This document shows, in pieces, positions 6,491-42,106 of a stretch of 44,801 bases of DNA. The notes below the pieces were generated by a model that saw only the letters and a program-made list of their open reading frames with translations, had not been told where the DNA came from and did not search any database. Source of the DNA: an uncultured Prochlorococcus sp. (GTDB taxonomy: Bacteria; Cyanobacteriota; Cyanobacteriia; PCC-6307; Cyanobiaceae); NCBI GenBank assembly GCA_902624085.1, contig CACNWD010000008.1:1-44801 (forward strand), written 5' to 3'. A program made the position numbers and the translations under genes. The number at the start of each line of letters is the position of its first letter. Position 1 is the first letter of the stretch.

Positions 6491-7222
6491 CTATGAACTC
6501 TCATTAGAACGATCCTCAAATTGCTGAGGCACTCTACTACCTTTTCTTTTATTGGTAGTCCCAACAGGAATAGATTGCTCCTCTTTAGATAGAACCTCCC
6601 CTTTAAATACCCAGACTTTTATGCCTAAGACACCATAAGTTGTGTTAGCTTCTTTGGTCGCATAATCAATTTCAGCTCTTAAAGTATGCAAAGGCACTCT
6701 GCCCTCTCTTGTCCATTCAGTTCTAGCAATCTCTGCACCATTTAATCTACCTCCAACTTGAATTTTAAGACCTAAGACACCTGCTCTTTGTGCTCTTTGC
6801 AAAGCCATTCTGATAGTTCTTCTAAAAGCGACCCTCTTTTCAAGTTGTTGTGCAATATATTCAGCAAGTAAAAAAGCATCTGCATCAACTCTCTCGACTT
6901 CAACAACATTAATTCTGACTTGTCTTGTTCTATCTCCAATAGTTTTTTGAATCCCTGATCTTAGTTCTTCAATTCCACTACCTTGTCTTCCAACAATTAC
7001 TCCTGGTCTAGCTGTTTTCAATTCTAATTCTAATTGATCTGCTTTTCTAGCAATCAATACATCACTAATACCAGCTGCTCCATATTTTTTTTGAACAAAA
7101 GTACGTATTTTATGATCTTCTTGTAAAAGAGTTGGATAAGTTTTAGATGAAGCATACCACTTAGAACGATGTTCTTGCGTGATGCCTAATCTTAAACCTG
7201 TTGGACTAATTTTATGACCCAT
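6491..7222 (-). CDS. rpsC: 30S ribosomal protein S3
   Basis: S3 lines the mRNA entry tunnel and has helicase-assisting activity. The 243 residues show [14 protein letters not shown] at the N-terminus and a KH domain with [11 protein letters not shown] (about 78-88). The C-terminal domain has [24 protein letters not shown] and [13 protein letters not shown]. The ATG shares a base with the rplV stop (TAATG), implying coupled translation. The C-terminal 25 residues are polar and variable. Confidence 0.98.
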
Positions 7223-7608
7223 TATTTTTGAACCTCCTCTTTAATTTGTGATGTTTGAGATTTTACAGTGATTGTTATGTGACATGATTGTTTTTTGATA
7301 GAGAATGCTCTACCTTGAGCTCTTGGACGATACCTTTTCATGACAGGTCCATTATTAGCAGCAGCAGAGTTAATAATTAAAGTAGATGGATCCATCCCTA
7401 AATTATGTTCTGCATTAGCCACTGCAGATCTTAAAACTTTTGTAATTGGTTCAGTTGATCTATATGGCATAAATTCCAGCATAATCAATGCATCTCTATA
7501 AGATTTACCACGAATTTGATCAAGGACTCTTCTTACCTTTGAGGCTGAACCTCTAATGTAATTTCCGTGAGCGACTGCTGTTTTCATAGAATCTTGTGTT
7601 GGAATCAT
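7222..7608 (-). CDS. rplV: 50S ribosomal protein L22
   Basis: L22 lines the nascent-peptide exit tunnel at its narrowest point. In the 128 residues, [30 protein letters not shown] is the N-terminal domain. The region from [10 protein letters not shown] through [24 protein letters not shown] contains the beta-hairpin that enters the tunnel. Both ends overlap neighbours by one base (TAATG with rpsS and with rpsC). Confidence 0.98.
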
Positions 7609-7883
7609 TATCTTGCTCCTTTTTTATCTCTAATATGACCACGATAGGTTCGTGTTGGAGCAAATTCTCCTAGCTTATGGCCAACCATTTGTTCTGTTAT
7701 AAAAACCGGAATATGTGCCTTACCATTATGCACTGCGATGGTATGACCAATCATCACTGGAAGTATCGTTGAAGATCTTGACCAGGTTTTGATAACCGAC
7801 TTGTCATTGTCATTATTTTGTTTTTCAACCTTTTTTAGTAGGCTATCTGCTATGAAAGGTCCTTTTTTAAGTGAGCGTCCCAT
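7608..7883 (-). CDS. rpsS: 30S ribosomal protein S19
   Basis: S19 binds the 16S rRNA head and contacts L5 across bridge B1. The 91 residues start [20 protein letters not shown]. They contain [27 protein letters not shown] and the signature [16 protein letters not shown] near the C-terminus. The gene follows rplB by 31 nt. Everything is standard for the family. Confidence 0.98.
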
Positions 7884-7914
7884 AATTAAAAAATGAATTT
7901 TGAAATAAATGAAA

Positions 7915-8778
7915 TCATGAATCTCTTCCTCCTCTACTTCTCTTGGAAATACGACGACGTTTGCGAAGGATAAGCTTATTACTTGGTTTGTTTTTCTTAC
8001 GTGTCTTTAACCCTAATGCAGGTTTACCCCAAGGAGTAACCGGTCCTGCTCTTCCTACAGGAGCTTTACCTTCTCCTCCTCCATGTGGGTGATCACATGG
8101 GTTCATAACGCTACCTCTTACTTGAGGTCTTCTTCCTAACCATCTTGTTCTACCTGCTTTGCCTAATTTTGTATTTCTTATTTCTGCATTACCAACTTCT
8201 CCAAGAGTGGCATAACATTCCTTCCTAACAAGTCTTACTTCTGTGGAAGGAAGTTTTAATGCGACATATTCCCCTTCTTTAGCCATTACTTGAGCACTTG
8301 CTCCCGCAGATCTAACCATTTGAGCACCTCTGCCAGCATAAAGCTCAACACAATGAACACTTGAGCCAAGTGGCATTACAGCTAATGGCATTGCATTCCC
8401 ATTCTCAAAAGGAACAGATTCCCCTGCAATTAATTTTTGGCCAACTTTAATCCCAGAAGGAGCAATTATGTACCTTTTCTCACCATCTTCATAAAATAAA
8501 AGAGCAAGTCTAGCATTTCTATGAGGGTCATAATGAATAGCAGCTACTTTGGCATTTATATTTCTTTTGTCTCTTCTGAAGTCAACAATTCTATACTGTC
8601 TTTTATGTCCACCTCCCCTGTGTCTACATGTAATAACACCTCTATTATTTCTTCCTTTTGATCTATGCTTGCTTACTAAAAGTGACTTTTCAGGTTTTCT
8701 TTCTGTGATTTCACTGAAGTCTGTCACTACTCTTTGACGAGTGCCAGGTGTATAAGGTCTGAATTTACGAATAGCCAT
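7915..8778 (-). CDS. rplB: 50S ribosomal protein L2
   Basis: L2 is required for subunit association and peptidyl-transferase activity. The 287 residues begin [21 protein letters not shown]. They contain the RNA-binding fold [22 protein letters not shown] and the C-terminal [19 protein letters not shown] signature with the functionally important histidine. The C-terminus is the expected basic [16 protein letters not shown]. It sits 12 nt downstream of rplW. Confidence 0.98.
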
Positions 8779-39456: not shown

Positions 39457-39527
39457 GGCGGCATGGCCAAGTGGTAAGGCAGAGGATTGCAAATCCTTTA
39501 TCCCCAGTTCGAATCTGGGTGCCGCCT
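39457..39527 (+). tRNA. tRNA-Cys (anticodon GCA)
   Basis: This is a 71-nt cloverleaf. The acceptor GGCGGCA pairs with TGCCGCC, the D arm is GCC/GGC, and the anticodon stem AGGAT/ATCCT holds loop TGCAA with GCA. The T arm is CCCAG-TTCGAAT-CTGGG, with discriminator T. CCA is not encoded. An imperfect copy of its 3' end lies at 39895-39920. Confidence 0.97.
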
Positions 39528-39616
39528 TCTTTATTTTTAGGACTATTACCCCTATAAATCGTTCTAAAAACTTAAGTTTGGCGTACCGGTTTTTGTATCT
39601 CAAATGCCTTTTATTG

Positions 39617-39679
39617 GTAGGAAACGATAGGAAATAGAGGAACTTATCGCCATTTCCATTACTACTATTATTTTCCTAC
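39617..39679. repeat. Nested inverted repeats downstream of tRNA-Cys
   Basis: GTAGGAAA (39617-39624) is mirrored by TTTCCTAC (39672-39679). Inside lie CGATA/TATCG (39625-39629 with 39645-39649) and GGAAAT/ATTTCC. The direct repeat TAGGAAA also occurs twice in tandem at the left. It may be a structured RNA, recombination-site arms or chance in AT-rich DNA. Confidence 0.35.
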
Positions 39680-39703
39680 ATTTTGATTTAAAGATCAAAA
39701 AAG

Positions 39704-39865
39704 TTATACATCTATTGAATAATCAAAATAAACATAATTCATAAATGGATCTTCTTTTATCCAAGCATAATAGATAGTAACTTCCTTTTCGATATTTCCT
39801 CTTGCAATACTTATTTGCACAAATTTAGAATATTTTTCTAAATTTAAGTTGGGGTTATAGGCAAA
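39704..39865 (-). pseudogene. Possible ORF remnant without a start codon
   Basis: An open frame of 53 codons ends at a TAA (39704-39706). It reads like protein: FVQISIARGNIEKEV, then TIYYAWIKEDPFMNY and VYFDYSIDV. It is closed upstream by TAA and TGA, and has only an internal GTG as start. It lies inside the patch bounded by tRNA-Cys and its imperfect 3' copy. It may be a decayed gene of a lost element. I recognise no family. Confidence 0.3.
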
Positions 39866-39894
39866 TTATCTTCTGATTTTTACGATTCAAAACT

Positions 39895-39920
39895 TAGTTC
39901 CAAGCTGAGTGCCAACTTCT
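39895..39920 (+). repeat. Imperfect duplicate of the tRNA-Cys 3' end (att-like)
   Basis: The 26 bases from TAGTTCCAAG to CCAACTTCT match 39505-39530 (T-loop through acceptor 3' strand plus 3 nt) at 20 of 26 positions, in the same orientation and 390 bp away. A partial tRNA 3' copy near an intact tRNA is the classic scar of a tRNA-targeting integrative element. The copy is degenerate, so any element is old. Confidence 0.4.
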
Positions 39921-39939
39921 TAAATTTTTTAAATATTTA

Positions 39940-40140
39940 CTAATAAACATTCCTAAAAACAAGATTTTGATTAGTGATCTTAAATTTCAAATCGTTTAAA
40001 TAAAGAACATTTTCAGCAAGTTTAGAAATATTTATTGAGGAATAGTTGTCCAATGAATATAAAGTCAAATAACAGACTGAGAATAAATTTGACGAAATAA
40101 TTATCGATAACTTTAGTAAGTACTTTAACTTCTTATTCAA
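39940..40140 (-). CDS. Possible short secreted/membrane peptide, unknown
   Basis: This open frame of 66 codons starts at TTG, overlapping the stop of the preceding small Cys-rich gene (TATTGA). The N-terminus is lysine-rich and hydrophobic (KKLKYLLKLSIIISSNLFSVCYL), like a signal sequence or membrane anchor. The remainder (NISKLAENVLYLNDLKFK) is polar. There is no family match that I know of. Translation is uncertain because the start is weak and the region looks accessory. Confidence 0.3.
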   Translation of the reverse strand: MNKKLKYLLKLSIIISSNLFSVCYLTLYSLDNYSSINISKLAENVLYLNDLKFKITNQNLVFRNVY

Positions 40141-40304
40141 TAATCATTATCAGAAACGCAAATACCCATACATCTAATACCATTAGATAAAGTTCTCATG
40201 CAATGATTACATAATATTTTTTCGTTATTTTTATTTGTTATTTGGATTTTTTCAGTAACTTTATTAGACAAAAAATGATTTATTGATTCACCACTAATTT
40301 TCAT
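40137..40304 (-). CDS. 55-residue four-cysteine (zinc-ribbon-like) protein, unknown
   Basis: The ATG at 40304 gives 55 residues. The C-terminal half has CNHC (about 37-40) and CMGIC (about 50-54 window; cysteines in CMGIC at its ends) separated by MRTLSNGIR, a plausible zinc- or metal-binding knuckle, and the protein ends SDNDY. The start lies inside the last codons of the upstream gene (11-nt overlap), so the two are probably coupled. The compact NGIRCMG...C pattern looks like a conserved picocyanobacterial small protein, but I cannot name a family. Confidence 0.6.
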   Translation of the reverse strand: MKISGESINHFLSNKVTEKIQITNKNNEKILCNHCMRTLSNGIRCMGICVSDNDY

Positions 40305-40935
40305 TACTGTTTACGTTTTCTGAATTGATACTAACAATTAGAGATGTATTAGTGTTAGAAGATGGAATATCCATTATTTTCACTGTTTCTTTCGATCTTT
40401 CTCTCACAGACACCTCTTCAACTTGATCCTCAACAGAACAAGCTTCAAGAGCCTCTCTTAAAAGTGAGTCAAAAGTTGCTCCAGGAAGTCTATGTCTAGC
40501 GACTTCAAGGAAAGTTCTTGGCAAAGATTCAGAGGCGGCATCTCTTAGGGCAGGATTATTTTTCCTATGTTCTTGTTCTTCTTCTATTGATTTGATAAAT
40601 CTTAATGTAACATCTCTTTTAGTTGAAGCTTTTATCAAAGTATCATTTTCTGGACTACTTACATTTGATTCATTTTCTAAGTCATCTAATCTTTTTTCTA
40701 AACTATTTAGAACCTCATTAGCTTCTTTACTTATATGAGCTAATTGACCATCAGATAAATTAGGCAAATCAGCCACAAAAACTTTTCCATGGTCTCTCAA
40801 TGTCAAGAAAGTTGGCCTTGGCCCTTGATTTTGACGACTGTTAAATTCCGATGAATTTCCAGCAGGTCTCCTTGGAGGAGTAGGTCCAGCAGAGCTTCTT
40901 CTACGAGTAATTCTCTTATTATTTTCAAAAGGCAT
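40294..40935 (-). CDS. Conserved picocyanobacterial protein of unknown function
   Basis: This is a 213-residue soluble protein. The N-terminal about 40 residues are basic, proline- and serine-rich and probably disordered (RRRSSAGPTPPRRPAG). The core has FLTLRDHGKVFVADLPNLSDGQLAHISKEANEV, then a coiled-coil-like acidic helix (LNSLEKRLDDLENES), a second helical block around VTLRFIKSIEEEQEHR and PRTFLEVARHRLPGATFDSLLREALEA. The C-terminus is acidic and low in complexity. I do not recognise a family. The next gene overlaps its end by 11 nt. Confidence 0.65.
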   Translation of the reverse strand: MPFENNKRITRRRSSAGPTPPRRPAGNSSEFNSRQNQGPRPTFLTLRDHGKVFVADLPNLSDGQLAHISKEANEVLNSLEKRLDDLENESNVSSPENDTLIKASTKRDVTLRFIKSIEEEQEHRKNNPALRDAASESLPRTFLEVARHRLPGATFDSLLREALEACSVEDQVEEVSVRERSKETVKIMDIPSSNTNTSLIVSINSENVNSNEN

Positions 40936-41062
40936 AAGGTTAATAAATCTAACTAATTAAACGTACTTTTTTTTAGTTCATTGTTTACTATATTACATCT
41001 TACTTTTTTATTTGTGTATAAAAAATATTGATTGTTCCTTAATTAAAAAAAATTAATAAATC

Positions 41063-42106
41063 CTAAAAAGAAATTCCATTTATCAATTGATTTACATTTG
41101 ATTCCTTTTTATTAAATATTTTTCCAATCTCCCAACTTGAAAAACCCTGCGATTCGCAAATATTAAAAACTTCTTGCCTATATTGCTTGTCTATAACGAG
41201 ACAATATCCGACTCCTAAATTAAATGTATTCCAAAGGTCATTTTCAGGGATTTGTCCGAATTCCCTTAGGAATTTGAAAATATATGGAATATCCCATGAA
41301 TCTCGAAAAATATGAGGTATGAAATCTGAAGGCATGCATCTTGGTAAATTTTCAGGAATACCGCCTCCAGTAATATGAGCCATACCTTTAATTTCAATAT
41401 TTTCTAATAAAATTTGTTTCATCAAATTTGAATATATCTTTGTGGGTTTTAAAAGCTCATCATAAAAATTTAAATTAGTTATCTTTTCGAATTTATCTTC
41501 TATATTTTCAACATTTTGGATTACATTCCTTACCAAACTGAATCCATTGCTATGAATTCCACTACTTTCAATCGCAATTATCAAGTCATTTTCTTTGATA
41601 TTTTTACCATCTATTAATTTTTCTTCTTCTACGACTCCAACGCAAAATCCCGCCAAATCATATTTATTTTGGGAATAAAAACCAGGCATCTCAGCTGTTT
41701 CACCACCTAATAATGAACAATTATTTTCTTTACAACTATTTGCAATTCCTAGAATTACGTTTTTCAGTTGATTCTTATCTAGTTTTCCAGTCGCAATATA
41801 ATCAAGAAAAAATAATGGAGATGCGCCAGTCGTAATAATATCGTTAATACACATTGCCACTAAATCAATGCCCACCTCAAAGTGAAAATTTTTTATTTGC
41901 GCCAACTCTAATTTTGTTCCAACTCCATCTGTTCCTGAAACCAAGACAGGATTTTTATATTTATTTAATGGTAATTTGAATAGGCCACCAAAGCCTCCAA
42001 TACTTTTAATTACATTAGGTGAGTGCGTTTTTTCAACAGCTTCTTTGATTTCAGATACAAATTCTCTTCCTGCTTCAATATCAACTCCAGATGTTTTGTA
42101 ATCCAT
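41063..42106 (-). CDS. purM: Phosphoribosylformylglycinamidine cyclo-ligase
   Basis: PurM (AIR synthetase) closes the imidazole ring in purine synthesis using ATP. The 347 residues include GFGGLFKLP, the SGTDGVGTKLELA signature (about 58-70), MCINDIITTGASPLFFLDYIATG, LLGGETAEMPGFY, SSGIHSNGFSLVR and AHITGGGIPENLPR. The ATG at 42106 diverges from panC-cmk across 99 nt. It is separated from the 40294-40935 gene by a 127-nt AT-rich gap without visible features. It is a normal full-length gene. Confidence 0.97.
   Translation of the reverse strand: MDYKTSGVDIEAGREFVSEIKEAVEKTHSPNVIKSIGGFGGLFKLPLNKYKNPVLVSGTDGVGTKLELAQIKNFHFEVGIDLVAMCINDIITTGASPLFFLDYIATGKLDKNQLKNVILGIANSCKENNCSLLGGETAEMPGFYSQNKYDLAGFCVGVVEEEKLIDGKNIKENDLIIAIESSGIHSNGFSLVRNVIQNVENIEDKFEKITNLNFYDELLKPTKIYSNLMKQILLENIEIKGMAHITGGGIPENLPRCMPSDFIPHIFRDSWDIPYIFKFLREFGQIPENDLWNTFNLGVGYCLVIDKQYRQEVFNICESQGFSSWEIGKIFNKKESNVNQLINGISF

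Follow-up and report, generated by a model that had tools for sequence, protein, structure and literature searches.

The window, the whole stretch of 44,801 nucleotides of an uncultured Prochlorococcus sp. analysed here, carries an intact tRNA-Cys gene whose 3' end is found a second time downstream, in degenerate form and in the same direction.

39457-39527, plus strand: intact tRNA-Cys (GCA), the target gene (ARAGORN; Rfam tRNA, 67.1 bits)
39505-39530, plus strand: proximal core copy (attL side); the same core precedes the flank in relatives
39506-39526: strict core AGTTCGAATCTGGGTGCCGCC within the proximal copy
39895-39920, plus strand: degenerate distal core copy (attR side), 20/26 against the tRNA end
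39896-39916: AGTTCCAAGCTGAGTGCCAAC within the distal copy

An earlier note on this DNA had reported the recurrence of these 26 nucleotides, with nested inverted repeats and a remnant of an open reading frame between the two copies. Our recount of 39505-39530 against 39895-39920 bears out the repeat (20 of 26 identities, direct orientation). The inverted repeats are present, with 39534-39547 pairing with 39557-39570 and GTAGGAAA at 39617 pairing with TTTTCCTAC at 39671, and the reading frame remnant is real, being the tail of a 505-residue protein of the relative G257 (39698-39883, minus strand). The likeness continues beyond the 26 nucleotides, as 39554-39580 resembles 39943-39969 at equal spacing.

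A shuffle test, which the earlier note had asked for, indicates that 20 of 26 is not expected by chance: among 2000 first-order shuffles of the next kilobase the maximum was 17. The next-best match to the tRNA-Cys end within the window reaches 15 on the plus strand and 16 on the minus strand, and the window's two other tRNA genes, compared with their own 3 kb downstream, give 15 and 14 only. Random 26-mers of the AT-rich window, compared with their own next kilobase, reached 20 in 3 of 3000 trials, and the GC-richness of the tRNA-Cys query therefore matters.

The remnant and the same site in relatives

What remains of the element in the window is 367 bp long. Its parts, and the flank to its right, are the following.

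39528-39605, plus strand: left-end block of the element, akin to that of the G257 element and of others
39615-39635, plus strand: left arm repeat pair TGGTAGGAAAC-GATAGGAAAT, with the repeat starting at +89, the distance seen in relatives
39671-39679, minus strand: inverted arm-like word, reading TTTTCCTAC on the plus strand
39698-39883, minus strand: pseudogene covering the last 62 residues of a 505-aa cargo protein (tblastn E 5.6e-25)
39866-39882, no strand: deletion junction, the overlap of the left-part and right-end alignments to G257; common to G024
39866-39894, plus strand: right end of the element, without right arm repeats, aligned with the right ends of G257, G024 and G105
39917-39994, plus strand: the simple site's flank, equal to the sequence that follows the tRNA core in G258; it also resembles an older left end of an element, and 39554-39580
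40137-40304, minus strand: 55-aa ORF in the host flank, a right-hand landmark found beyond the site in relatives

The left-end block matches the left end of G257 at 85% over 228 bp and that of the integrase-bearing G087 element at 75% over 98 bp. No second arm pair like that at 39615-39635 exists in the window, and right arm repeats are missing from -90 to -55 before the distal core. At a place similar to that of the inverted arm-like word, the left end of locus L098 has TTTTCCTACC. The pseudogene corresponds to residues 444-505 of the G257 protein at 64.5% identity, with two in-frame stops; for the full 505-residue protein no family was found in Pfam or PHROGs. The 367 bp contain no integrase gene, and no phage gene was seen in them.

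An alignment across Prochlorococcus genomes, as proposed in the earlier note, shows both a simple site and larger cargo, and the 390-bp arrangement is not kept unchanged in all strains; it varies. Matches to the interval or its flanks are found in 238 of 266 genomes of the genus. In G258 the flank found behind the window's distal copy comes immediately after an intact tRNA core. G257 has a 2,960-bp element between two good cores with the same flank behind the second core, and G024 has three cores with two tandem elements; in all three relatives the distal flank is the same as that of the window or a relative of it. At least 26 of the 205 genomes with a core match carry two or more cores with differing cargo, a lower bound as copies as degenerate as that of the window escape the core search. 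Perfect second cores and variable cargo are among the variants at this site. The elements range from about 170 bp to 9.5 kb in length (2.96 kb in G257, about 0.2-9.5 kb in others); most are 0.2-3 kb long and the integrase-bearing ones 7.1-9.5 kb. A truly empty ancestral site was not seen among the relatives compared, since the G258 flank itself looks like an older left end. The resemblance of this flank and of the window's distal flank to such an end points to a layered history of the site.

Several other observations were made at this site. In G024 (L033), positions 7093-8320 hold a 1.2-kb copy (91%) of window 39978-41204, with what may be a degenerate core and left end at its left edge. As this copy lies between runs of N, it is most likely a scaffolding artefact, and possibly a real duplication. 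In several cargo-only elements (L043, L053, L054, L057, L059, L066) the one large gene encodes a polysaccharide-export (Poly_export/SLBB) protein. Two very small units between cores, L047 4913-5082 (169 bp) and L069 1088-1264 (176 bp), consist of a left end fused to a right end, with the left and right arm stretches being one shared stretch. Their structure suggests that they arose via recombination between arm repeats.

Against the G257 element, positions 39508-39882 of the window cover the left part (83%), and positions 39866-39962 correspond to the right end and the flank behind it. Both alignments include the short imperfect repeat 39866-39882 where they join, which implies a loss of about 2.6 kb of interior, and since the junction is common to G024, the deletion probably predates the split of the two lineages. 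With its right arms deleted the remnant should be immobile, and the scar in the window is an ordinary, dead one.

We are confident that the interval is the dead, internally deleted remnant of a tyrosine-recombinase element inserted at the 3' end of tRNA-Cys. The simple site, the larger cargo in relatives and the exclusion of chance support the earlier suggestion that an integrated element left its scar here. As read in the sequence, the duplicated core, the simple site, the full relative, the deletion junction and the arm repeats are all present; the past mobility of the window copy, which has no integrase and one arm pair only, is deduced from its relatives. A tyrosine recombinase would have inserted the element into the 3' end of tRNA-Cys by recombining the tRNA core with the core carried by the element, so that the tRNA stayed whole and a second core marked the distal end. 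The element inserted was probably like the 2.96-kb cargo-only G257 element. Afterwards, short imperfect repeats would have been the endpoints of a deletion of about 2.6 kb that removed the interior and the right arms, and the product would be the 367 bp with pseudogene tail and left arm repeats, both ends being kept.

Arm repeats and integrase

In most elements at the tRNA-Cys site an 11-bp sequence, TGGnnGGnAAG, occurs twice in tandem; these pairs, which we call arms, stand at about +89/+100 after the tRNA and about -79/-68 before the distal core. A lag-11 repeat at +84 to +103 is found in 33 of 57 distinct tRNA-Cys loci, against 1.8% of control stretches. The letters of the arms vary between elements (GGTAGGAAAG, GGGCGGTAAG, GGATGGTAAG, GGACGGTAAG, GGTCGGCAAG, GGACAGCAAG), and the left and right arms of one element match each other far better than those of different elements do: the score is 283, whereas permutations average 230.5 and peak at 257 (0 of 20000 permutations; again 0 of 20000 when a single element represents each letter group). 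The window carries the GGTAGGAAA class once, at 39615-39635. When this pair was searched for genus-wide in 265 genomes, allowing up to one mismatch, all 16 matches fell at the expected positions, namely +88, +89 or +100 downstream of the tRNA-Cys gene, or -78 or -80 relative to a distal core; the reversed control pattern gave at least 3 matches among the matches listed. The arm letters of the integrase-bearing elements in G087, G159 and G239 are seen again in cargo-only elements: GGGCGG in L047 and L060, GGATGG in L047 and L055, and GGACGG in L061.

Arm classes can also be followed elsewhere. Most of the Poly_export/SLBB elements share GGACAGCAAG-type arms. L036 1-751, upstream of the G257 element, contains the end of a further element, whose arms are of another class (GGTAGGTGAGTGGCAGGTGAAT). 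An integrase-bearing contig (L085 and L102; W8, G034) has tRNA-Phe-type cores and TGGTAGGTGAG arms near +89 and -81, and the second target may therefore have this layout as well.

A tyrosine recombinase is encoded within the site elements of G087, G159 and G239, where it adjoins the distal core at the same tRNA. L098 (Prochlorococcus AG-363-B04) combines the integrase, tRNA-Cys and, on both sides, GGTAGGAAA arms, the letters of the window. G087 has a small serine recombinase and G159 and G239 have similar ones; with L098, these are the relatives at the same site that have the integrase and serine recombinase feature. The 19 integrase relatives in named genomes all belong to Prochlorococcus or Synechococcus, and the tRNA at their loci, where found, is tRNA-Cys in 8 and tRNA-Phe in 4.

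Searches of the integrase against Pfam, NCBIfam and, by profile, PDB sequences gave no relevant match, and PHROGs matched one C-terminal fragment only. Because the profile libraries failed to recognise it, we turned to structure prediction (pLDDT 85.6, pTM 0.55). The top matches of the model are XerH, Tn1549 Int and full-length lambda Int including its N-terminal part (residues 1-444 against 1z1b, Z 15.4). Residues R285, R393, H394 and Y431, invariant in 14 homologs, are consistent with the catalytic R, R, H and Y. By its predicted fold and its catalytic residues, the integrase of the relatives is a tyrosine recombinase. In the window's own genome (68% complete) no integrase of the site family was found; the only PF00589 match sits in what appears by eye to be a conserved core-gene neighbourhood and was rejected as the mover.

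Known systems and other explanations

A 2023 preprint (PMC10187409) describes a new subgroup of tyrosine integrases of marine picocyanobacteria, which it separates from the tycheposon integrases and whose mechanism of mobilisation or integration it gives as "not yet known". Their genes are located beside tRNA-Phe or tRNA-Cys and often accompanied by that of a small serine recombinase. The integrases at the window's site probably belong to this family, an identity that rests on features matching its description: host group, the two tRNA genes, an integrase that profiles do not recognise, a serine recombinase nearby and variable cargo. The window copy, inserted at tRNA-Cys, one of the two family targets, differs from the elements described there in being a 367-bp remnant without integrase. 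As these 367 bp hold no integrase gene, it is a related non-autonomous remnant and not a member of the family.

The earlier note had named tycheposons and phage as Prochlorococcus elements that use tRNA genes. Its integrative element at the tRNA stands; the element is probably of neither kind and fits the tRNA-Cys/tRNA-Phe integrase family of PMC10187409. Tycheposons, cargo elements of 4-200 kb that Prochlorococcus carries in association with tRNA genes, encode a tyrosine recombinase (PMC10872708), and the elements at this site share with them the tRNA target, a tyrosine recombinase and the cargo. However, the integrase at the site fits the family that PMC10187409 reports as separate from tycheposon integrases, and at 367 bp in the window and 0.2-3 kb in most relatives the elements are below the tycheposon size range. 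A phage origin was rejected: the remnant shows no phage gene, the phage collection gave tRNA matches only, and neither the 21-bp core nor the integrase had a relative in IMG/VR. None of these searches gave a free or phage-packaged form. We consider a tycheposon or phage scar improbable.

Slippage or illegitimate recombination that duplicated the tRNA end locally, with no recombinase involved, would account for a degenerate copy restricted to the 3' part of the tRNA. Such an origin is very unlikely given the second cores with differing cargo in at least 26 of the 205 core-bearing genomes, the arm repeats at fixed distances from both cores and the integrase genes beside the distal core. That the repeat arose by chance in ordinary AT-rich host spacer, for which the three successful random 26-mers and the many short repeats of the region could be cited, is ruled out to near certainty by the shuffles with this GC-rich query and by the cores (perfect second ones included), variable cargo, flanks and arms of the relatives.

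As a remnant of an integrated element, the window copy can be compared with two further systems. CIMEs of Streptococcus are cargo-only units bounded by att sites, without recombination genes and found in tandem at one target, and microCIMEs are 130-220 bp long (PMC7563491). The window similarly has two cores, the distal one degenerate, and no genes besides the pseudogene tail, and the 169-bp and 176-bp units are within the microCIME size range. CIMEs have descent from conjugative or mobilizable elements as a feature of their own, whereas the likeness here lies in att bounds, gene content, tandem order and size. With lambda attachment sites the elements share repeats flanking the core on both sides and a predicted integrase with N-terminal, core-binding and catalytic parts. 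They differ in that the putative binding arms consist of 11-bp repeats in tandem, which point the same way on either side of the element and vary in their letters from one element to the next.

The arms as a possible identity code

The paired arm repeats, matched between left and right, are new here. The core, these arms and the cargo-only derivatives go unmentioned in the consulted passages of PMC10187409, and parts of the attachment-site layout may already be published. The arm repeats might be bound by the integrase, and cargo-only elements might depend for their movement on an integrase supplied in trans by another element whose arms have the same letters. It is in our judgement an evenly balanced question whether the arms are an identity code, in which each integrase would recognise its own 11-bp letters and would excise and integrate in trans the small cargo-only elements that have these letters at both ends. 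tRNA-Cys and tRNA-Phe would then be shared docking points, with few autonomous elements mobilising many tiny passengers.

The arm code is the interesting part of these results, and the value of the scar is that it points to the attachment-site layout. Core, end blocks and matched arms give a concrete and testable layout for a family whose mechanism PMC10187409 reports as unknown. The layout suggests how streamlined Prochlorococcus genomes might swap very small cassettes, such as polysaccharide-export and TPR genes, on elements without an integrase.
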